Source: Burkholderiaceae bacterium (GTDB taxonomy: Bacteria; Pseudomonadota; Gammaproteobacteria; Burkholderiales; Burkholderiaceae_C). From it: a stretch of 64,000 nt of DNA. A program made the translations under genes and the position numbers. Positions within the stretch are counted from its first letter, which is position 1. Each line of letters begins with the position of its first letter. The notes under the pieces were generated by a model, which did not search any database, was not told the origin of the DNA, and worked only from the letters and a program-made list of their open reading frames with translations. Positions 1 through 13,966 of the stretch are shown piece after piece. The DNA is taken from NCBI GenBank assembly GCA_023150375.1, contig JAKLLA010000009.1, positions 1 to 64,000 of the forward strand, written 5' to 3'.

Positions 1-774
1 TACCTGCCCGGCGACGAGCCGAGCATGATCGCGCTGGTGGAGCGCGTGAAGGCTGCGGGCTACCGCACGCTGGTGGTGACGGTGGATGCCAACATCGCCT
101 CCAACCGCGAGAACAACATCCGCGCCGGCTTCTCCACGCCCCTGCGCCCCAGCCTCTCCCTGGCCTGGCAAGGCATCACGCACCCGCGCTGGACCCTGGG
201 CACCTTCCTGCGCACGATCGTGTACCACGGCATGCCGCACTTCGAGAACAACTACGCGCGGCGGGGTGCGCCGATCCTCTCGGCCGACGTGCAGCGCGAC
301 TTCTCGGACCGCGGCCACCTGAACTGGGAGCACATCCGCAGCATCCGTCGCATCTGGCCGGGCCAGCTGGTGCTCAAGGGCATCCTGGACGTGCGCGATG
401 CGCGCCTGGCCGTGGACCTCGGCGCCGATGGCATCATCGTCTCCAACCACGGCGGCCGGCAGCTCGATGGCACGGTGTCGCCCCTGAGGGTGCTGCCCCG
501 GATCGTGGCCGCCTGCCCCGAGGTCCCGGTCATGATCGATAGCGGCTTCCGCCGCGGCACCGACGTGCTGAAGGCCCTGGCGCTGGGCGCGAAGTTCGTC
601 TTCATCGGCCGGCCCTTCAACTACGCCGCTTCCGTGGCGGGCGAGGCCGGCGTGCGCATGGCCATCGCCCTGCTGCGCGAGGAGGTCTCGCGCAACATGG
701 GCATGCTGGGCATCACCCAGCTCTCCGAGCTCGATGCCAGCTACCTGCTTCCGGCAGGCAGCCAGAATCCCTGA
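1..774 (+). CDS. FMN-dependent alpha-hydroxy-acid oxidase/dehydrogenase (5'-truncated by window edge)
   Basis: This is the C-terminal part (257 codons) of a member of the L-lactate dehydrogenase / glycolate oxidase / mandelate dehydrogenase family, which oxidises 2-hydroxyacids to 2-oxoacids with FMN in a TIM barrel. The reading frame is open from base 1, so the start lies upstream; full family members have about 380 residues. The FMN and substrate motif SNHGGRQLDG is visible at about 438-467, with the invariant His and Arg. It is followed by the phosphate-binding segment IDSGFRRGTDVLKALALGA and FIGRP. The substrate cannot be read from the sequence; lactate, glycolate and hydroxyglutarate-type acids are all possible. 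An RraA-like gene follows 20 bp downstream in the same direction, so it probably belongs to a hydroxyacid catabolic operon. Confidence 0.9.
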   Translation, partial: YLPGDEPSMIALVERVKAAGYRTLVVTVDANIASNRENNIRAGFSTPLRPSLSLAWQGITHPRWTLGTFLRTIVYHGMPHFENNYARRGAPILSADVQRDFSDRGHLNWEHIRSIRRIWPGQLVLKGILDVRDARLAVDLGADGIIVSNHGGRQLDGTVSPLRVLPRIVAACPEVPVMIDSGFRRGTDVLKALALGAKFVFIGRPFNYAASVAGEAGVRMAIALLREEVSRNMGMLGITQLSELDASYLLPAGSQNP

Positions 775-794: not shown

Positions 795-1469
795 ATGGTC
801 GGTTTCCAGATCCTCCAGCGCCGCCGCCAGGTGGACGCCCGCTACGTGCAGGCCTTCGCGGACATCCCCGTGGCCAACGTCAGCGACTGCATGTCGCGCA
901 TGACAGCCGGCGGAGCCAGCCTCCGACCGTTCCACGCCAAGGGAGTTCTTGCCGGGCCGGCGCTGACCGTCAAGGCCCGACCGGGCGACAACCTCCTCAT
1001 CCACAAGGCGATCCATCTGGCCGAGCCAGGTGACGTCATCGTGGTCGACGGCGGTGGCGATCTCACCAACGCGTTGATCGGCGAGTTGATGGTCGCCACT
1101 GCAATCAAGAAGGGCATTGCCGGCTTCGTGCTGAACGGTGCGATCCGGGACGTCGACGCAATCGGGGCTGGTTCGTTTCCTGTCTACGCGGCCGGCGTGA
1201 CCCATCGGGGTCCTTACAAGGACGGGCCGGGCGAGATCAACGTTGCGATCGCGCTGAACGGCATGGTCGTGGAGCCCGGCGATCTGATCGTGGGTGATGC
1301 TGACGGTGTGCTGTGCGTGCCCTACGACGCCGTCAACGAGGTGCTCGATGCCGCCAAGCGCAAGGGTGCTGCCGAGCAGGTGACGATGCGCGAGATCGAG
1401 GAAGGACGGCTCGACATCGCTTGGATCGATGCAACCCTGGGGCGGCTCGGCTGGAAGGGTGACCAGTGA
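795..1469 (+). CDS. RraA family protein (4-hydroxy-4-methyl-2-oxoglutarate aldolase / oxaloacetate decarboxylase type)
   Basis: This 224-residue protein belongs to the RraA/HMG-aldolase fold family. Members are class II (metal-dependent) pyruvate aldolases or oxaloacetate decarboxylases, or in gammaproteobacteria the RNase E inhibitor RraA. The family signature GGGDLTNALIGELM spans residues 86-99, and the catalytic Arg-Asp pair sits in NGAIRDVD at R118-D119, so an enzyme is more likely than the regulator. The ATG is preceded by AAAGGACA. The stop codon overlaps the next start by four bases (GTGA), which points to translational coupling with the dehydrogenase. Neighbouring hydroxyacid oxidation and pyruvate genes fit a role in cleaving a branched or hydroxylated 2-oxoacid, but the substrate is inferred. 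Confidence 0.85.
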   Translation: MVGFQILQRRRQVDARYVQAFADIPVANVSDCMSRMTAGGASLRPFHAKGVLAGPALTVKARPGDNLLIHKAIHLAEPGDVIVVDGGGDLTNALIGELMVATAIKKGIAGFVLNGAIRDVDAIGAGSFPVYAAGVTHRGPYKDGPGEINVAIALNGMVVEPGDLIVGDADGVLCVPYDAVNEVLDAAKRKGAAEQVTMREIEEGRLDIAWIDATLGRLGWKGDQ

Positions 1470-2422
1470 ATATCGTTTTCCTGGATCGCGAGACGCTGTC
1501 TCCGCAGACCGTTCTGCGTGAACCTTCGTTCACACACCAGTTGCACCTTCACGGGCGGACATCGCCTGCCGAAGTGCACGGGCGCATTGCCGACGCCGAC
1601 ATCATCGTCGTCAACAAGGTCCGTCTAGACCAGGCAGCGATCGCGGCGGCCCCCAGGCTGCGGATGGTGGCGGTGGCCGCTACCGGAACGGACAACGTCG
1701 ACATCGCGGCGTGCCGCGAGCGCGGCATCGTCGTGAGCAACATCCGCAACTACGCGGTCAACACCGTTCCCGAGCACACCTTCGCGCTCATCTTCGCGCT
1801 GCGCAGGAGCATCTGTGCCTACCGCGATGCGGTGCGCACCGGCCGCTGGCAGGCGTCGGGCCAGTTCTGCTTCTTCGATCATCCGATCAAGGACATGGCC
1901 GGATCGACTCTGGGCATTATTGGCGACGGCGTGCTTGGTCAAGCGGTGGCTGACCTGGGACGTGCGCTGGGAATGCGCGTGATCTTCGCCGGCTTCAAGG
2001 GCCATTCCGGGCAGGGCATGCTGTACACGCCGTTCGAGAAGACGCTGGCGGAGGCGGACATCCTGACACTTCATTGCCCCCTGACGCCCGAGACGCGCAA
2101 CATGATCGGTGCTCCGGAGTTCGCGCTGATGAAGCGCAGGCCGTTGCTCATCAACACCGCCCGCGGCGGCCTGGTCGATGAAGCCGCAGTAGGACCGGCC
2201 CTCGAGGCAGGGCAGATCGGTGGCGCAGGGTTCGATGTGGTTTCGGTCGAGCCCCCACCGGCCGATCACCCCTTCATGAGGCTGGCTGACCGGCCCGACT
2301 TCATCCTGACTCCGCACGTGGCATGGGCCAGCGACGAAGCAGTCCAGGGGCTTGCGGATCAGTTGATCTACAACATCGAGGCCTTCGTCCGCGGCGAGCC
2401 GAGAAACGTGGTCGGCGCCTGA
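1466..2422 (+). CDS. D-2-hydroxyacid dehydrogenase (glycerate/hydroxypyruvate reductase-like)
   Basis: This 318-residue protein is in the NAD-dependent D-isomer 2-hydroxyacid dehydrogenase family. It interconverts a 2-oxoacid (hydroxypyruvate or glyoxylate are typical) and the D-hydroxyacid. The Rossmann glycine motif GDGVLG lies at residues 153-158. The catalytic triad is visible as R233 (in NTARGGLVDE), E262 (in VEPPPADHP) and H284 (in TPHVAWAS). The start is GTG at 1466, overlapping the upstream stop; no better ATG is nearby. With garK and pyk downstream it plausibly supplies D-glycerate. The exact substrate cannot be read from the sequence. Confidence 0.88.
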   Translation: MNIVFLDRETLSPQTVLREPSFTHQLHLHGRTSPAEVHGRIADADIIVVNKVRLDQAAIAAAPRLRMVAVAATGTDNVDIAACRERGIVVSNIRNYAVNTVPEHTFALIFALRRSICAYRDAVRTGRWQASGQFCFFDHPIKDMAGSTLGIIGDGVLGQAVADLGRALGMRVIFAGFKGHSGQGMLYTPFEKTLAEADILTLHCPLTPETRNMIGAPEFALMKRRPLLINTARGGLVDEAAVGPALEAGQIGGAGFDVVSVEPPPADHPFMRLADRPDFILTPHVAWASDEAVQGLADQLIYNIEAFVRGEPRNVVGA

Positions 2423-2691: not shown

Positions 2692-3672
2692 ATGACCCGA
2701 CTTCCTTTCATCCATATGGCGCTCGCTGCATGCTTGGCCGCTGTGGGCTTTGCTTCGCACGCCCAGGAGTGGCCCTCGAAGAAGGTCATCGCACTGGTGG
2801 TGCCCTATGCCGCTGGCGGCAGTACGGATGCCACCGCCCGTCTCATCGCGGACAAACTGGGGAAGGAACTGGGGCAGCAGGTGGTCGTCGACAACAGGCC
2901 GGGCGCCGGCAGCAATCTCGGCGCTGCGTTTGTGGCGAAGGCGCCTCCCGATGGCTATACGCTTTTGCTCGGTACGAGCGCGGCCGCTACCAACGTCACG
3001 CTCTATAAGAACCCGGGCTTCGATCTGCGCAAGGATCTCGTCCCCGTCGCCCAGGTCGCACAGATTCCTACGGTGCTTGCGGTCAACAACGACGTGCCCG
3101 CCAAGACGCTCCAGGAGTTCATCGCCTACGCACAGCAGAAGAGCGTGCCAGTTAGCTACGGTTCGGCGGGCAACGGTACATCGTCGCACCTGTCAGGCGC
3201 TCTCTTCAACAGCATGGTCAAGGGGAACATGCTGCACGTGCCCTACAAAGGCGGTGCGCCCGCCAACACCGACCTGATGGGCGGCCAGGTCCAGGCGGTG
3301 TTCTCGCCGCTGGTGGAGGTCTTGGCCTACATCGACAGTGGCAAGCTGCGCGCGCTTGGCCTGGCGAGCAAGACTCGCTCGCCGCGATTGCCGAAGGTCC
3401 CCGCCTTGGCCGAGGCTCTGCCCGGCTTCGAAGTGTCGCTGTGGAACGGCGTCTTTGCGCCAGTCGGCACGCCGCCGGCCATCGTCGACAAGCTTGCCGT
3501 GGGAATCAACAAGGTGGTGCAGGATCCCGGCGTGCGCAAGACGCTCGCCGATCAGGGATCGACGCCGGTGGGCAACACCCCGGCCGAGTTCAAGAAGATC
3601 CTGGACGAGGACTTCAGATGCAGGTCTCACGGCAATGCATCGATAGACCCGGAATCATGCTTGAACAGTTGA
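2692..3672 (+). CDS. Tripartite tricarboxylate transporter (Bug) substrate-binding protein, 3' end apparently frameshifted
   Basis: This is a periplasmic solute receptor of the TctC/Bug family (COG3181), about 326 residues as read here. The ATG at 2692 follows GGAGACACC and starts a Sec signal peptide ending near ASHA-QE (residues about 1-24). Family motifs are present: VPYAAGGSTDATARLIA, VVDNRPGAGSNLGAA and PYKGGAPANTDLMGGQV. After DEDF the reading runs into an atypical tail (RCRSHGNASIDPE...). The neighbouring frame restores the expected ending, with QVSRQC and GIMLEQ. A one-base loss in the run ATGCAG near 3618-3621 (ATGGCAG would give R-W-Q-V) explains this. The binding lobes are intact, so it may still work. 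No TctA/TctB membrane genes are in the window. Confidence 0.85.
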   Translation: MTRLPFIHMALAACLAAVGFASHAQEWPSKKVIALVVPYAAGGSTDATARLIADKLGKELGQQVVVDNRPGAGSNLGAAFVAKAPPDGYTLLLGTSAAATNVTLYKNPGFDLRKDLVPVAQVAQIPTVLAVNNDVPAKTLQEFIAYAQQKSVPVSYGSAGNGTSSHLSGALFNSMVKGNMLHVPYKGGAPANTDLMGGQVQAVFSPLVEVLAYIDSGKLRALGLASKTRSPRLPKVPALAEALPGFEVSLWNGVFAPVGTPPAIVDKLAVGINKVVQDPGVRKTLADQGSTPVGNTPAEFKKILDEDFRCRSHGNASIDPESCLNS

Positions 3673-3815: not shown

Positions 3816-5231
3816 ATGCAACGCCAGCGCCACGGAAAGATCATTGCGACGCTTGGTCCAGCCAGTTCCGACCGCGACACCATCTGCGCGTTGTTCCACG
3901 CGAGCGCGGACGTGTTCCGGCTGAATTTCAGTCACGGTACTCACGCCCAGCACGAGGAACGGCTGGACCTGATCCGAGCTGTCGAGAAGGATGCGGGCCG
4001 TCCGATCGCCGTGCTGCTCGACCTGCAGGGACCGAAGCTGCGCATTGGCACATTCGAAGCGGGACCGGTCATGCTCGTCCCCGGCGCGCCCTTCCGCCTC
4101 GATCTGGACGAGGCACCCGGCAACGCGTCGCGGGTGCATATGCCGCATCCGGAGATCTTCGCCGTGCTCCGGCCCGGCCATGCCCTGTTGCTCGACGACG
4201 GCAAGCTGCGCCTGCGTGTCACTGCCTGCAGCACGGACCATGCCGAAGCAGTGGTCGTCACCGGCGGCGCGTTGTCCGAGCGTAAGGGCGTGAATGTGCC
4301 TTCGGCGGTGCTGCCGATCTCGGCCTTGACGCCGAAGGATCGCAAGGACCTCGACTTCGGGCTCAGCCTCGGCGTCGACTGGGTGGCGCTGTCATTCGTG
4401 CAGCGACCGGAGGACGTGCAGGAGCTGCGTGACATGGTCGGTGGCCGGGCCGGTGTGCTGTCCAAGCTGGAGAAGCCAGCTGCGATCGAGCGGCTCGAAG
4501 CCATCGTTGAGCTCTCCGATGCCGTCATGGTGGCGCGCGGCGACCTCGGCGTTGAAATGCCCGCCGAGCAAGTGCCAACTATCCAAAAGCGCATCGTGCG
4601 CGCCTGCCGCAAGGCCGGCAAGCCGGTGGTGGTCGCCACCCAGATGCTCGAGTCGATGATCTCGGCGCCGGTACCCACACGCGCCGAGGCGTCCGACATC
4701 GCCACCGCGGTCTATGACGGCGTCGATGCGGTGATGCTGTCGGCCGAATCGGCATCGGGCAAGTACCCGCGCGAGGCCGTCGCGGTGATGAACGCGATCA
4801 TCTCGGAGGTCGAGGCCGATCCGTACTGCCGAACCGTCGTCGAGGCGTCGGGCTTCGCTCCGCAGGCCACCGTGGGCGATGCGATCTGCGCCTCGCTGCG
4901 GCACACCGCGGAGCTGCTGCGCGTCGCCTCGATCGTGACGTTCACGCGGTCCGGTGCAACCAGCTTGCGCGCGGCGCGCGAGCGGCCGCTGGCTCCGATC
5001 ATCAGCGTCACGCCGGACCTCGATACGGCGCGGCGCCTGGCGCTCGCCTGGGGCGTGCACTCGGTCCACGTCGAAGCCGATGTGAACGACGTTCCCGGCA
5101 TGGTCCGCGTCGCAACGGCGCTCGCACGCGAGGAAGGACACGCGGCACCCGGCGCATTCATCGCCATCGCCGCGGGCATGCCTTTCGGTCAGGCGGGTTC
5201 CACCAACCTGCTGCACATCGCCCAGGTCTGA
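3816..5231 (+). CDS. pyk: Pyruvate kinase
   Basis: This 471-residue pyruvate kinase converts PEP and ADP to pyruvate and ATP, the last step of glycolysis. Conserved blocks are all present: [10 protein letters not shown] at the N terminus, [28 protein letters not shown], the catalytic-lysine segment [19 protein letters not shown], and the signature [15 protein letters not shown]. The C-terminal allosteric domain is complete. An AAGGGGAAC ribosome site precedes the ATG. It lies between a Bug receptor and an enolase remnant followed by glycerate kinase. In such clusters pyk commonly serves glycerate or glyoxylate catabolism rather than housekeeping glycolysis; this role is inferred from context. 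Confidence 0.95.
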
Positions 5232-5276
5232 CCGCGGATCGCGCCGCAAACCACAGAGAAGGAACAGGAGAACCAC

Positions 5277-5466
5277 ATGGCACGAATCGTCAACGTGCAG
5301 GGAGTCTAGATCATCGATTCGCGCGGCTCCGGCCGTGGCGGCCAGTGTGCTTGTCGAGTCCGGCACGCGCGGCCAGGCGGCGGCACCATCCCGCGCCGCC
5401 ACCGATTCAAGCGAGGCTTTCGAGCTGCGTGACGGGGACGCCGCGCGCTACGGCGGCGCGACGCGT
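5277..5466 (+). pseudogene. eno: Decayed N-terminal remnant of enolase
   Basis: Directly after pyk, with an intact ribosome site (GAACAGGAGAACCAC), an ATG at 5277 opens [10 protein letters not shown]. It hits an in-frame TAG at 5307 and continues as IIDSRG, the classic start of enolase (family pattern I-x-x-REILDSRG). From 5341, in a shifted frame, the sequence reads [17 protein letters not shown] and then [15 protein letters not shown]. This matches the enolase segment up to about residue 60. Nothing of the remaining roughly 370 residues follows before glycerate kinase at 5553. The stop, the frameshifts and the truncation make it a pseudogene. An intact enolase must exist elsewhere in the genome. 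Confidence 0.85.
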
Positions 5467-5552
5467 TCACTGTCCTTCGATGCGCCTGAGCTGCCCCTGG
5501 CATGAACTCATGCGCTCGCGCTACAGCCCCAGACCTCGACAGAGGAAACCCC

Positions 5553-6755
5553 ATGAAAGTCATCATTGCACCGGATTCGTTCAAGGAAAGTCTCAGCGCG
5601 CTGGCCGTGGCGAACGCCATCGAGGAGGGATTCCGGCAGGTGTTCCCCAATGCGCGATTCGTCAAGGTGCCGGTCGCCGACGGTGGAGAAGGCACCGTGC
5701 AGGCCCTGATCGATGCGACCGGTGGAACCCTTCGGAACCTCGATGTCGTCGGGCCGGCAGGCAGCACCGTGCGAGCCGCGTACGGCTTGAGCGCCCAGAC
5801 CGGGCTCGCGGTGATCGAGATGGCGGCGGCGAGCGGGCTCGAGCTGGTGCCGCCGGCGCAGCGCGATCCACGCAGCACCACAAGCTACGGCACCGGGCAG
5901 CTGATACGGGACGCACTGAATGCTGGTGCCCGGCGCTTCGTGATCGGGGTCGGCGGCAGCGCCACCAACGATGGCGGCGCCGGCATGTTGCAGGCACTCG
6001 GCGTGCGCCTGCTCGATGCCACCGGCGTCGACATCGACCGCGGCGGCGCTGCGCTGGCGCGGCTGGCGCGCATCGACGTAAGCCGGCTCGACGCCCGAAT
6101 CGGCGCGTGCCAGATCGACGTCGCTTGCGACGTTACCAATCCGCTGGTCGGGCCGCTCGGCGCCTCAGCAGTCTTCGGTCCGCAAAAGGGCGCGACGCCG
6201 GAGATGGTGAGACAGCTCGACCAGTGCCTGCAACGTCTGTCTGAAGTCCTGCAGCGCGACCTGGGCGAGGACGTAGCGGGAGTTCCGGGCGCCGGTGCGG
6301 CCGGCGGCCTCGGCGCCGCGCTGCTGGCGGTGCTCGGCGGCCGACTGCGTCCCGGTTGCGAAGTCGTGATGGATGCGATCAACCTGGAAGCCGTTCTCGA
6401 CGGGGCCGATCTCGTCGTCACCGGCGAGGGCCGCACCGACGGCCAGACCGTCTATGGCAAGGCCCCGATCGGTGTTGCGCGGGTGGCAGCGCGCTGCGGC
6501 GTGCCAGTGATCGCGCTGTCCGGCTGCCTGACGCCGGATTCCGCGGCGGTTCACGAGCATGGGATCGCCGCCGTCTTCAGCGCCGTGCGCCGGCCGTGCA
6601 CCGTCGAAGAGGCGCTTCGCGACGCCGCAGTCAACGTGCGCAGCGCCGCCTACAACGTTGCCAGCGCGCTGAGCCTCGGGATGCGCATCGAAGCATCGCG
6701 CCGCGCGCGGCCGGGCATCCAGGCTACAGATACACGGCTGCCGGCCAGACCTTGA
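5553..6755 (+). CDS. garK: Glycerate 2-kinase (GarK family)
   Basis: This 400-residue member of the GarK/GlxK glycerate kinase family phosphorylates D-glycerate to 2-phosphoglycerate. Recognisable blocks are MKVIIAPDSFKESLSA at the N terminus, PVADGGEGT, GVGGSATNDGGAGML, the glycine-rich GAGAAGGLG, and VTGEGRTDGQTVYGKAP. The ATG at 5553 is preceded by AGAGGAAACCCC. The product feeds enolase and pyruvate kinase, and both sit just upstream (enolase only as a remnant). The 3' end overlaps the convergent LysR gene by 32 bases. Confidence 0.93.
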   Translation: MKVIIAPDSFKESLSALAVANAIEEGFRQVFPNARFVKVPVADGGEGTVQALIDATGGTLRNLDVVGPAGSTVRAAYGLSAQTGLAVIEMAAASGLELVPPAQRDPRSTTSYGTGQLIRDALNAGARRFVIGVGGSATNDGGAGMLQALGVRLLDATGVDIDRGGAALARLARIDVSRLDARIGACQIDVACDVTNPLVGPLGASAVFGPQKGATPEMVRQLDQCLQRLSEVLQRDLGEDVAGVPGAGAAGGLGAALLAVLGGRLRPGCEVVMDAINLEAVLDGADLVVTGEGRTDGQTVYGKAPIGVARVAARCGVPVIALSGCLTPDSAAVHEHGIAAVFSAVRRPCTVEEALRDAAVNVRSAAYNVASALSLGMRIEASRRARPGIQATDTRLPARP

Positions 6756-7614
6756 ACAAGGCGTCAAGCAATGCCGCGAACAAGGGCCGCGCGGCATCTT
6801 CCGCACGCAGCACCATCGACAGCGGACAGTTGATCCGCGCGCCGTCCCACAGAAAGATGTTCTTGTGCGGCATGACCTCGAGCGCCAGCCGCTCGCGCAA
6901 AAGGCACAGGCCGATGCCAGCGTGCACCAGGTCGATCATCGAGAATTCCTGATCGGCCTCGACCACGAAGTGCCGCCCCAGGCCGTGCTCCTTCATCAGC
7001 TTGTCCACGATAGCCGCCTGCGAGCTGGCTTTCGGCGTGCCGACCCAGGGCAGCGCCGCGAGCGCCTCCCAGCTGCCGTCCGGAATCCGTTCGCGCCATG
7101 CCGCCGGCACTGCGACGACATAACTTTCGAGGCTCAGCTGGATTGCCTTGAGTTCCGGATCGTCGACTGCGCCGAGGAAGAAGCAGGCGTCCAGTTCCTC
7201 GGCCTGCAGGCGCTCGAGCACCGATCCAGAAATGCCGTGCTCCAGCTTGACGTCGATGCCCGGAAACTGCCGTTGCATCTCGACCAGCAGGTCGCCGAGG
7301 CGAATCGACTGAGGGTCAACGATCGTGCCCAGTCTTAGCGTCCCAGAGATCTGACCCTGCATCAACTTGGCAGCCGACACCAGTTCGGTTGCAGCCTCAA
7401 GCGTGCGCTTGGCCAGCGGCATCAGACGCCTTCCGACTGCGCTTAGTGTCATGCCTGAAGGCGTGCGCTCGAACAGCGATGCGCCGAACTCCTCTTCCAG
7501 GGCCTTGAGCTGCTTGGACACCGCCGATTGCGTCAAGTGCAGTTGCTCGGCCGCACGCGTCATGTGTCCGGTGCGCGCAACGGCGATGAATGCCCGCAGC
7601 TGATAGATTTCCAC
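6724..7614 (-). CDS. LysR-family transcriptional regulator
   Basis: This 296-residue LysR regulator is read from a GTG at 7614 giving VEIYQLRAFIAVARTGHM, which places the helix-turn-helix (TRAAEQLHLTQSAVSKQLKAL) at residues about 17-37. That is the normal position, so I prefer it to the longer frame from 7791. The C-terminal part is a complete periplasmic-binding-like effector domain. The gene is convergent with and overlaps glycerate kinase. It probably controls the hydroxyacid/glycerate cluster or is autoregulated; the effector is unknown. Confidence 0.85.
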   Translation of the reverse strand: MEIYQLRAFIAVARTGHMTRAAEQLHLTQSAVSKQLKALEEEFGASLFERTPSGMTLSAVGRRLMPLAKRTLEAATELVSAAKLMQGQISGTLRLGTIVDPQSIRLGDLLVEMQRQFPGIDVKLEHGISGSVLERLQAEELDACFFLGAVDDPELKAIQLSLESYVVAVPAAWRERIPDGSWEALAALPWVGTPKASSQAAIVDKLMKEHGLGRHFVVEADQEFSMIDLVHAGIGLCLLRERLALEVMPHKNIFLWDGARINCPLSMVLRAEDAARPLFAALLDALFKVWPAAVYL

Positions 7615-7972
7615 GTCGGTCCCCGATGAGCAGGCGGTCCAGCTGGGTCTTGTATCACCGGACCGGTGATGCACTTCTGCGGCTCGCGGCCGGTACGTCT
7701 CGAGTTGGTGGCGACTCGCCGACCCGACGGTCGGCGGGAACGCTCTGCCGACGATTATCGGTCGATGGGTAAAAGGCCCGTCCGCTCGCACCTGCTGCGC
7801 AGGTCAATTGCTCTCGACGGGGCGCGCCTCCAGACGGCCCACCCATGGCTGGGCCAGCCGGCATACCCGCGACTCGCTCGGGCATTGCAACGTCCCAACG
7901 ACTCCAGCGTGTTGGAGACTGCTTGCCTCATTCGACAGCGCCAGCTGGTGCCATGAACACAATCCGCAGACC
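7615..7972. other. Non-coding gap upstream of the LysR gene
   Basis: No open frame here resembles a known protein on either strand. It contains the LysR gene's own upstream region and then unassigned sequence leading into the decayed block. I see no promoter, repeat or RNA that I can support. Confidence 0.4.
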
Positions 7973-8262
7973 TCACGTCCTCCGCGACGGCATCTTCCGT
8001 TGTTCCGTGCCCAGCCGGACCCCAGTAGCGTCGTTGATCAACGGCGAGGGCACCGTGATGGCGAGCTGACCGCCGGTGTCCAGCAGGAAGTCGACCTTGA
8101 TGGCCCCCAGTTGGACTTCGACCACGGGCAAGCCGTCGATCATCCGCACAGGGATCGTTTCAGCCGAACGAACGGCGCCCGAACAGGAGATAGCTGCCGC
8201 CAGAAAAACGCCGACCCGGTAGCCGGCAGATTGGGCAGACTGCCAAGACTGGTACAGGCCGC
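7973..8262 (-). pseudogene. 5' fragment of an aspartyl-protease-family protein
   Basis: On the minus strand a frame ending at TGA 7975-7973 reads a hydrophobic signal-like stretch (YRVGVFLAAAISCSGAVRSA). It is followed by IPVRMIDGLPVVEVQLGAIK and then VDFLLDTGGQLAITVP. The F-L-L-D-T-G-G core is the active-site signature of retropepsin-like aspartyl proteases. Only about 75 residues remain, where family members usually have 250-350, and no ATG, GTG or TTG precedes the signal segment in frame. It therefore looks like a decayed fragment lacking both its start and the rest of the domain. It abuts the recombinase fragment. Confidence 0.6.
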
Positions 8263-8570
8263 TCAGATCAAGATCCTTTCGACGTCATCCAAATTGATGG
8301 GCTCACTGCGTCTATCGTAGAGCCCGGTCGTACGCGACGACTCGTGGTTGGCCATCTTCTGAGCGATCTCCAGCCGTCCACCGTTGCGCAAAAACTCAGT
8401 TATGCCAGTTGCTCGAAAGCTGTGACAGCCAATTCGCGTGAGGACATCGGCAGCCTCCGCGCGACGCCGAACCATACGAAAGACGTCTGCGGACAACATC
8501 GCACGATCTGAGAGATGCCCTGTCCTCCCAGCCACGGTACGAAACAGGCTGCTCTTCTTTTCCCGTGAGC
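8263..8570 (-). pseudogene. C-terminal fragment of a tyrosine recombinase/integrase
   Basis: The minus-strand frame reads LFRTVAGRTGHLSDRAML, then CHSFRATGITEFLRNGG, and MANHESSRTTGLYDRR. These are the H-x-x-R box, the late His and the catalytic Tyr (GLYDRR) of the phage-integrase family. Roughly 100 residues remain out of 300-400, and the catalytic first Arg and the DNA-binding N terminus are missing. The upstream end runs without a start codon into the IS transposase fragment. It is a remnant and not likely functional. Confidence 0.8.
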
Positions 8571-8584
8571 CGAGGCAATCGATG

Positions 8585-8912
8585 CCGCTCGGAGCGCACG
8601 CTGTACAGCACCTGCAGCAGCATGGCGCGCAGCAGCTTCTCCGGCGCTATGCCGGGTCTCCCGCCCTTGACCTCGGCCGCGTACATGGCCGTCAACTCCG
8701 GCCCCAGCTTGGCCAGCGCCGCGTTGGCCATCTTGCGAATCTCACGCAGCGGATGCCGCGCGGGCACAAAGTCCTCCAGCTTGCGCATGGTGAACAGGCT
8801 CTCGGTGAAGGTGTCGGCGCCGCGCATGGGACTCACTCGGATCGGGTGGTCAGATTGTCCTTGTGGCAAGCCGCGCATCGGTGACTGCAGCGCGGTTTTT
8901 CAGCAGCCTGCT
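8585..8912 (-). mobile_element. IS5-like insertion sequence remnant (left end plus transposase N terminus)
   Basis: Reading on the minus strand from ATG 8827, 81 codons match the N terminus of IS5-group transposases: ADTFTESLFTMRKLEDFVPA, HPLREIRKMANAALAKLGPE, RPGIAPEKLLRAMLLQ and LYSVRSER. After SVRSER the match stops abruptly near 8585, where recombinase sequence begins, so the DDE catalytic domain is gone. On the other side the sequence TTTTTCAGCAGCCTGCTAG (8896-8914) resembles the terminal inverted repeat of such elements, placing the element's edge near 8912. The transposase is inactive. The insertion probably interrupted the adjacent NYN gene. Confidence 0.75.
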
Positions 8913-9447
8913 AGAGGCCATGTTCGACCGACGGGCGGACACATTCTGTCTGGTGACCAGTGATTCAGACTTCGCCTACCTGTGCCGGAAGCTGCGCGAA
9001 CGGGGCGCGCAGGTCGTGATTGTCGGAGAGGCGAAGTCGCCTGCAGCGTTGCGCAACGCAAGTGATCAGTTCTTTGAGTGGGCAAGACCGGTGCCGCCAG
9101 GCAATGGCAGTGCTCTGGTCAGCCCTGCAACAGAGATGCCCGCAGCCGACGTTACTGCCGCAGCAAAGCCAGAACTACCCAAACCCGTTCCCAAGCGACG
9201 ACCTCGTTTTGTCGCGGAGGCGGTCGAACTGATGGCTGCCGACACGTCGGATGGGAAAGTTCATTTCGGGGCACTTGGTCAGTATCTCAAGCGCACTGAC
9301 CCAGCGTTCTCACCCAAGATCTACGGCTTTTCCGGGCTGCTGGAAATGGTTCGCACCTATGACTTGTTGATCGTTCAACAGGAACCCGGGGGTCACTGGA
9401 CGGTTCGGCTCAAACCCAAGCTGGATGCAGAAGAGGCGCCGGGCTGA
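8911..9447 (+). pseudogene. 5'-truncated NYN-domain / OST-HTH (LOTUS) protein
   Basis: The frame continuing from the IS end reads LEAMFDRRADTFCLVTSDSD, the second half of a NYN (PIN-like ribonuclease, DUF88) domain with the conserved TSDSDF acidic cluster and ALRNASDQFFEW. A proline-rich linker follows, then a LOTUS/OST-HTH domain (residues from RRPRFVAEAVELM to HWTVRLK). Intact relatives have an extra 70-90 residues carrying the first catalytic Asp (VDAxN region), which is missing here. Translation could restart at ATG 8920 to give about 175 residues, but without the first catalytic segment nuclease activity is unlikely. Confidence 0.7.
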
Positions 9448-9474
9448 CTGAGACGACTAGATGGCTTGCCAGCT

Positions 9475-9655
9475 TCAGGCTGCATAGACAGACTGCCGCT
9501 CGGCGTTCACGCGTTGCCTGAGGTAGGGGTTTATCACCGACCGCTCGACCACCAGATCCACCAGGCGGCCGAGCCGAAGAACTCCAACTGGGGTGCCGGC
9601 GGCAGAGCACAGCGATGTCATCGCGGCGGTCGAGGATGAAGCGGGGCACGACCAT
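9475..9655 (-). pseudogene. Remnant of an MNT-type nucleotidyltransferase (MntA-like antitoxin)
   Basis: From ATG 9655 on the minus strand the frame reads MVVPRFILDRRDDIAVLCRR. A second frame then gives LEFFGSAA, the GS nucleotide-binding motif of minimal nucleotidyltransferases. A third frame gives RLVDLVVERSVINPYLRQRV and ends ERQSVYAA, the usual C-terminal pattern. The segment carrying the D-x-D catalytic pair is deleted, and the pieces are out of frame with each other. Intact MntA proteins have about 100-140 residues and pair with a HEPN toxin; no HEPN gene is adjacent. Confidence 0.6.
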
Positions 9656-9767
9656 GCGTGTATTGAACGGTGATGGCCGGTGAATTGGCATCGCCCGACC
9701 TGTTCCCCACGCTCGGCGCGGGGTAACACGCGACTTTCCGCGCGTGGAGGGTCCGTCGCCACGCCCT

Positions 9768-10061
9768 TCAGTGGCTCTGCCGCCAGGCCTCGATCATTTC
9801 GAGGGTGACGTCGCTCGGGTAGCACAGGGGCTGGCGACCGCCCGGCTTGCTCCAGGCGCTGTTCTTGCCGCAGCGCCGGCCGTTGCGCATGATGTTCTCG
9901 GGGCAGGGGCACTGGCCGCGGTAGGCGGCCAGCGATTCGTCCATCAACTGGTGGCGGATCGCCGCATCGCTGAGGGCCGCCGTGCCGTCGGGCCCCGCAG
10001 CGGCCGGGCCACAGATGAGCGCCGCGGCTGCGCCGAGCAGGGCCGCGCCGGTCCGGAACAT
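9768..10061 (-). CDS. Small secreted cysteine-containing protein of unknown function
   Basis: This 97-residue protein starts at ATG 10061 (a GTG at 10079 would add six residues). It has an N-terminal signal peptide ([20 protein letters not shown], cleavage near AAAG) and a mature part with the motif [20 protein letters not shown] and a later LCYPSDVT. The four cysteines suggest a disulfide-bonded periplasmic or secreted fold. I have seen this Cys-Pro-Cys-Pro pattern in conserved hypothetical proteins but know no function. It lies 28 bp downstream of gyrB on the same strand and might be read through from it. Confidence 0.7.
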
Positions 10062-10089
10062 CGGCGGCCTGCGCGGCACTGCGGCCCGA

Positions 10090-13966
<3,877 letters not shown>

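Follow-up and report, generated by a model that had tools for sequence, protein, structure and literature searches.

D-Glycerate is converted to 2-phosphoglycerate, phosphoenolpyruvate and finally pyruvate by glycerate 2-kinase, enolase and pyruvate kinase. Gene clusters that pair a glycerate kinase with a pyruvate kinase are known, they include the tartrate operons of Agrobacterium vitis and the glyoxylate clusters of Pseudomonas (PMC2063504). In the accessible part of that paper the two genes adjoin and lead from glycerate to pyruvate, as in the locus described here. That part names no enolase, whereas our locus combines a class I glycerate kinase gene (garK) with a former enolase gene. Among open-licence PubMed Central papers we found none whose title concerns an enolase gene clustered with tartrate genes or with glycerate kinase and pyruvate kinase. 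The question of why operons form can be tested naturally on operons that include their own copy of a central glycolytic gene. Candidate reasons are self-sufficiency on transfer, flux insulation and co-regulation.

The stretch of DNA analysed, which we call the window, is the first 64 kb (64,000 nucleotides) of contig 40 of a Burkholderiaceae genome of 4.63 Mb in 43 contigs. Between its pyruvate kinase (pyk) and glycerate kinase genes lies the start of an enolase gene. This relic is very probably what remains of a dedicated enolase (eno2) in a glycerate-to-pyruvate catabolic cluster. The labels ttuC, ttuD, gckA and eno2 are working names that rest on family matches.

The cluster and its enolase relic

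The cluster contains the following features, given as positions in the window.

1..774, + strand: FMN-dependent alpha-hydroxy acid dehydrogenase/oxidase, C-terminal part (PF01070, 8.4e-83)
795..1469, + strand: RraA-like aldolase/decarboxylase family protein (PF03737, 5.2e-47; NF004850, 2.5e-96, over cut-off)
1466..2422, + strand: D-2-hydroxyacid dehydrogenase (PF02826, 3.8e-49; NF005069, 1.1e-107, below cut-off)
2692..3672, + strand: TctC/Bug-type solute-binding protein (PF03401, 1.1e-69)
3816..5231, + strand: pyruvate kinase (pyk), full length (TIGR01064, 2.5e-145, over cut-off)
5257..5276, + strand: ribosome-binding region of the enolase relic (sequence, computed anti-Shine-Dalgarno energy)
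5277..5457, + strand: enolase relic, residues 1-61 (Enolase_N profile, tblastn, alignment to G713)
5458..5552, + strand: spacer without significant similarity, with a candidate garK ribosome site (AGAGGA)
5553..6755, + strand: garK/glxK-type (class I) glycerate kinase, full length (TIGR00045, 2.2e-150, over cut-off)
6724..7680, - strand: LysR-type regulator (same place in relatives)

The product of pyk scores 484.6 bits against the pyruvate kinase model TIGR01064 (cut-off 306.4), and GarK scores 500.9 bits against the class I model TIGR00045 (cut-off 168.45). The module defined by the order and orientation of the four genes pyk, eno2, garK and lysR is present in the window, where eno2 survives as a relic. 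The N-terminal part of the oxidase is found on another contig (C24), which shares the first 140 bases of the window as an exact overlap. This contig also carries an iron-type alcohol dehydrogenase and an aldehyde dehydrogenase, both with family matches below the cut-offs, and parts of a TRAP transporter that were identified by reading the translations. A search at 1e-15 over 4.5 kb around pyk gave no match to ttuC or gckA, and this neighbourhood lacks the tartrate dehydrogenase and class II glycerate kinase genes of a ttu-type tartrate operon. The D-2-hydroxyacid dehydrogenase may, at a guess, be a hydroxypyruvate reductase. Further along, the reverse strand has an open frame at 8396-8878 that matches a transposase domain (DUF772, E=1e-5) and lies between the cluster and a gene with an NYN/OST-HTH domain (8863-9447). 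Beyond that gene are gyrB- and dnaN-like frames, recognised by reading their translations.

A preliminary description of this DNA had placed a decayed enolase between pyruvate kinase and glycerate kinase, at 5277-5466. The Enolase_N profile, tblastn and the gene order all agree with this. The start of the proposed span holds, its end does not, as significant tblastn similarity stops near 5457. Frame 0 opens with an ATG at 5277, continues for 10 codons to a TAG at 5307-5309 and then reads IIDSRGS, so that the in-frame stop at 5307 and the IIDSRG start are both as first described. The frame change that had been noted corresponds to a net loss of 2 nt near 5327 in a DNA alignment with the intact gene of a relative (G713). 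The +1 frame then gives 43 readable residues, placed at 5329-5457. When aligned to enolase the translated pieces fit residues 1-61, in keeping with the original proposal. Everything after YGG is missing; about 370 C-terminal residues are absent and about the first seventh of the gene survives. Relic and G713 gene differ at 12 first, 7 second and 21 third codon positions over 43 codons, a coding signature therefore remains in the relic.

The Enolase_N domain (PF03952) matches 5320-5463 in the shifted frame, with E=1.3e-8 in a search of one genome. The score of 36.7 bits exceeds the curated cut-off of 35 and the match covers model positions 13-60 of 131. A local enolase profile search gave E=1.4e-12 for the relic, and in tblastn the genome's own enolase is 58% identical to it over residues 10-61 (E ~1e-9). 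The catalytic barrel domain (PF00113, Enolase_C) has no match at the relic, which is therefore a relic and not an enzyme. The sole Enolase_C match in the genome belongs to its one complete enolase (C13:269063-270328), this is the other copy that the preliminary description had expected.

The sequence directly 5' of the relic's ATG is AGGAACAGGAGAACCAC. Its computed anti-Shine-Dalgarno energy is -7.4; for 1000 random 20-mers the 25% point is -5.9 and the 5% point -8.8, so the value lies between the two. The ribosome site and ATG that had been reported are thus present, and the site is of fair strength, good and not exceptional. The spacer that follows the relic possibly begins with a scrap of the C-terminal part of enolase (RDAFTVLR, compared with RDAFPLLR of G713); the similarity is not significant, its score was equalled by 19 of 200 shuffles and by 66 of 300 other stretches of the window. 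A blastn search of plasmids found no match to the relic DNA, and a 30-base piece of it found none in viral contigs.

The same cluster in relatives

The garK gene is rare in the family: 11 of 349 genomes, the window's among them, have it at E<=1e-60. Within the window's genus it occurs in one of 13 genomes, the window's own (1e-40). Another genus of the family has garK in five of six genomes, always after pyk of the window's type. Three relatives (G713, G574 and G744) carry pyk, a full enolase gene and garK, followed by lysR on the opposite strand. The order and orientation are those of the window, where the enolase is a relic; pyk is 78-80% identical to that of the window (80% for G744 and G713) and garK 74-75%. 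The three also differ upstream, where they have an oxidoreductase resembling inositol 2-dehydrogenase (below cut-off), the window has instead the hydroxy acid oxidase, the RraA-like protein and the D-2-hydroxyacid dehydrogenase. An intact enolase gene exactly between pyk and garK is what had been predicted for relatives, and these clusters support the earlier view that the window's cluster once held glycerate kinase, enolase and pyruvate kinase together.

In a fourth relative (G476) the enolase between pyk and garK (locus L155, 7535-7990) has two in-frame deletions of 765 and 75 nt. Residues 1-43 remain, as does much of the C-terminal region, and the product is without catalytic stretches that are present in the others. 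The shortened gene is an open frame with its stop just before the garK start. A fifth relative (G745) has 15 nt from the pyk stop to the garK start and no enolase match. All five relatives also have a separate enolase, and where relatives carry the clustered enolase it is a paralogue distinct from a housekeeping-like one.

Half of the six clusters (window, G476 and G745) thus have a broken enolase or none, counting garK clusters with the window's type of pyk. The pyk tree places the window outside the five relatives, with support of 98/97 for the six and 98/98 for the five. The three clusters without a whole enolase are not grouped in the pyk and garK trees and three changes are needed, two of which are forced by well-supported branches. 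The losses, one each in G476, G745 and the lineage of the window, appear to be independent. The window branches outside the five and still carries its relic at the corresponding position, so by parsimony the enolase gene was probably already present in the ancestor that these clusters share. Among the relatives found to carry the cluster, the nearest is about 80% identical in pyk.

In seven of the 11 family genomes with garK (G152, G527, G654, G516, G485, G665 and G017) there is no pyk of the window's type and no enolase within about 1.5 kb at 1e-6, and for G152 none within about 7 kb. Four of five other genomes of the order with garK (1e-130) have no pyk or enolase match within 1.5 kb. The genome G293 (L161/L167) has garK (64%) followed directly by a 41%-identical pyk of another type with no enolase match between them, which we regard as a separate garK-pyk pairing.

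The first 7,700 nucleotides of the window, which hold the cluster, have a G+C content of 66.4%, compared with 70.3% for positions 10000-64000. Stretches of 7.7 kb taken every 2 kb from the latter range from 67.8 to 72.1%, and the cluster is lower than all of them. The low G+C and the presence of garK in a single genome of the genus suggest that the cluster was acquired by the window's species.

Function of the cluster and alternative explanations

The window's cluster probably turns glycerate into pyruvate. In the ancestral route GarK would have phosphorylated glycerate, the dedicated enolase would have formed phosphoenolpyruvate and Pyk would have completed the conversion to pyruvate. The upstream oxidase, RraA-like protein, dehydrogenase and solute-binding protein may feed this route, from a hydroxy acid through hydroxypyruvate to glycerate. 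The eno2 gene would have been dispensable because the housekeeping enolase performs the same conversion, and may have decayed through a nonsense mutation, a minor frameshift and the deletion of about 1.1 kb. The dN/dS ratios relative to G713 are about 0.19 for pyk and 0.23 for garK; selection would still act on both genes, which would now both depend on the central enolase. If the route runs, the remaining enolase must supply the step now that the private one is gone. From the pathway, the genome's single housekeeping enolase presumably does so, as the preliminary description had concluded.

The sources consulted disagree on the product of class I glycerate kinases. A table in the part of PMC2063504 available to us names 3-phosphoglycerate as the product of one E. 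coli class I kinase; if this were the product of GarK, a mutase would be needed as well. The window's GarK scores 473 bits against a glycerate 2-kinase model and 443 bits against a 3-kinase model, both below cut-off. A clustered enolase would point to 2-phosphoglycerate for a class I glycerate kinase. It argues for this product here, and GarK would then make 2-phosphoglycerate.

By itself the relic is an ordinary decayed paralogue. It is very unlikely that the fragment derives from a housekeeping enolase gene that was copied into the space between pyk and garK without ever having functioned in the cluster. The residues fit this alternative as well as they fit a dedicated enolase. Over 43 residues the mean identity of the relic is 25.8 to 14 pyk-adjacent enolases and 26.7 to 12 housekeeping enolases, which gives no discrimination, and the comparison leans to the housekeeping type because 11 of these 12 sequences were fetched by DNA similarity to the relic stretch. 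As it stands, the residue comparison gives eno2 no advantage. Against the alternative, the relic has its own ATG and ribosome site where relatives carry a full eno2, and its DNA is slightly nearer to the G713 eno2 than to the genome's own enolase gene (40 and 48 mismatches in 129 positions, a small difference). It is gene order, and not these 43 residues, that separates the two types of enolase.

The relic might instead retain a function, as a short leader of 10 residues or as a spacer that affects the translation of garK. The survival of the relic's ribosome site agrees with such a function, and the shortened enolase of G476 offers a parallel. Its deletions are both multiples of three and its stop lies just before garK, which it might affect by translational coupling. 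On the other side, the 10-codon frame of the relic stops 243 nt before garK, which possibly has a ribosome site of its own, and two in-frame deletions would occur by chance about 1 time in 9. The Shine-Dalgarno energies of garK are -5.5, -1.9 and -8.7 in the clusters with an intact enolase and -6.0, -12.3 and -7.6 in the others. Shine-Dalgarno strength does not split the six clusters cleanly and was rejected as a predictor of enolase loss. We consider a retained function very unlikely. Chance similarity or an assembly error, for which the broken frame is the one point in favour, is a negligible explanation given both profile E-values, the enolase at the same place in relatives and the absence of about 370 residues, which is beyond the reach of base errors.

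Dedicated enolases beside pyruvate kinase

The explanation as a dedicated enolase agrees with the wider distribution of such genes. One branch with support of 100/99 splits the 14 pyk-adjacent from the 12 housekeeping enolases, in a tree that omits the shortened G476 copy and Cupriavidus sp. P-10 and in which one sequence (L131) forms a long branch. Twelve of the 14 pyk-adjacent enolases have all seven motifs that were checked, L131 and L199 each miss one.

We compared 112 pyk loci, selected for similarity rather than at random, with a reach of 4.5 kb at 1e-15. An enolase lies within reach of pyk in 16 of them. Seven of these 16 have ttuC and gckA, one has gckA only, four have garK (G713, G574, G744 and the shortened copy of G476) and four have none of these. 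The gckA gene occurs without enolase in 34 loci, in four of these with ttuC, and a class II kinase gene is near pyk of the window's type in 42 of the 112. Two garK loci are without an enolase match at this threshold, the window and G745, and 60 loci have none of enolase, gckA, ttuC and garK within reach. We also scanned 143 loci, with repeats removed by their first 300 bases, using an enolase profile over as much as 2.5 kb after pyk; this gave 15 full and two partial enolases (G476 and the window). The scan found no further relics among these loci, some of which end at contig ends, so that absence of enolase is not always shown.

Enolases of the eno2 group also occur in tartrate operons. In L201, L206 and Cupriavidus sp. 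YR651 (L064), for example, the operon comprises ttuC, a transporter, gckA, pyk and eno2. These share with the window the type of pyk and an eno2-group enolase directly after it. They differ in that a class II kinase gene precedes pyk and a tartrate dehydrogenase gene is present, neither of which turned up in the 4.5-kb search around pyk of the window (1e-15). In L206 the neighbouring genes score over cut-off against the tartrate dehydrogenase model TIGR02089 and against DctA models, and the class II kinase of L064 resembles glycerate 2-kinases without reaching the cut-offs of their models. The annotation of a Paraburkholderia caledonica plasmid lists tartrate dehydrogenase, glycerate kinase, pyruvate kinase and an MFS transporter and no enolase.

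Dedicated enolases thus recur next to this type of pyk, and they have been lost at least twice and in different ways. The relic is best read as a decayed gene of this recurrent catabolic module. The module is seen with its enolase intact, shortened in frame, absent and as a relic, which could allow a direct comparison of the cost and benefit of an extra copy. We tentatively suggest that the enolase could be a portable but expendable part of glycerate-to-pyruvate modules, in which one lineage of dedicated enolases travels beside pyk of this type, makes a newly arrived cluster self-sufficient from glycerate to pyruvate and is shed repeatedly once the host's enolase covers the step, the manner of loss being limited by garK translation; taken as a whole this reading is doubtful.

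Some further loci lie at the edges of this survey. In Aromatoleum evansii (L131, near 8001-10960) a distant pyk (57%) is followed by the long-branch enolase, beside parts of a TRAP transporter recognised by reading translations. This is possibly a separate pairing of pyk and enolase. The next nearest pyk genes after those of the six clusters, in L207 and L208 (G568 and G460; 74% and 72%), are without adjoining enolase or garK matches. In L208 the gene after pyk resembles a phosphoglycerate mutase by reading of its translation.
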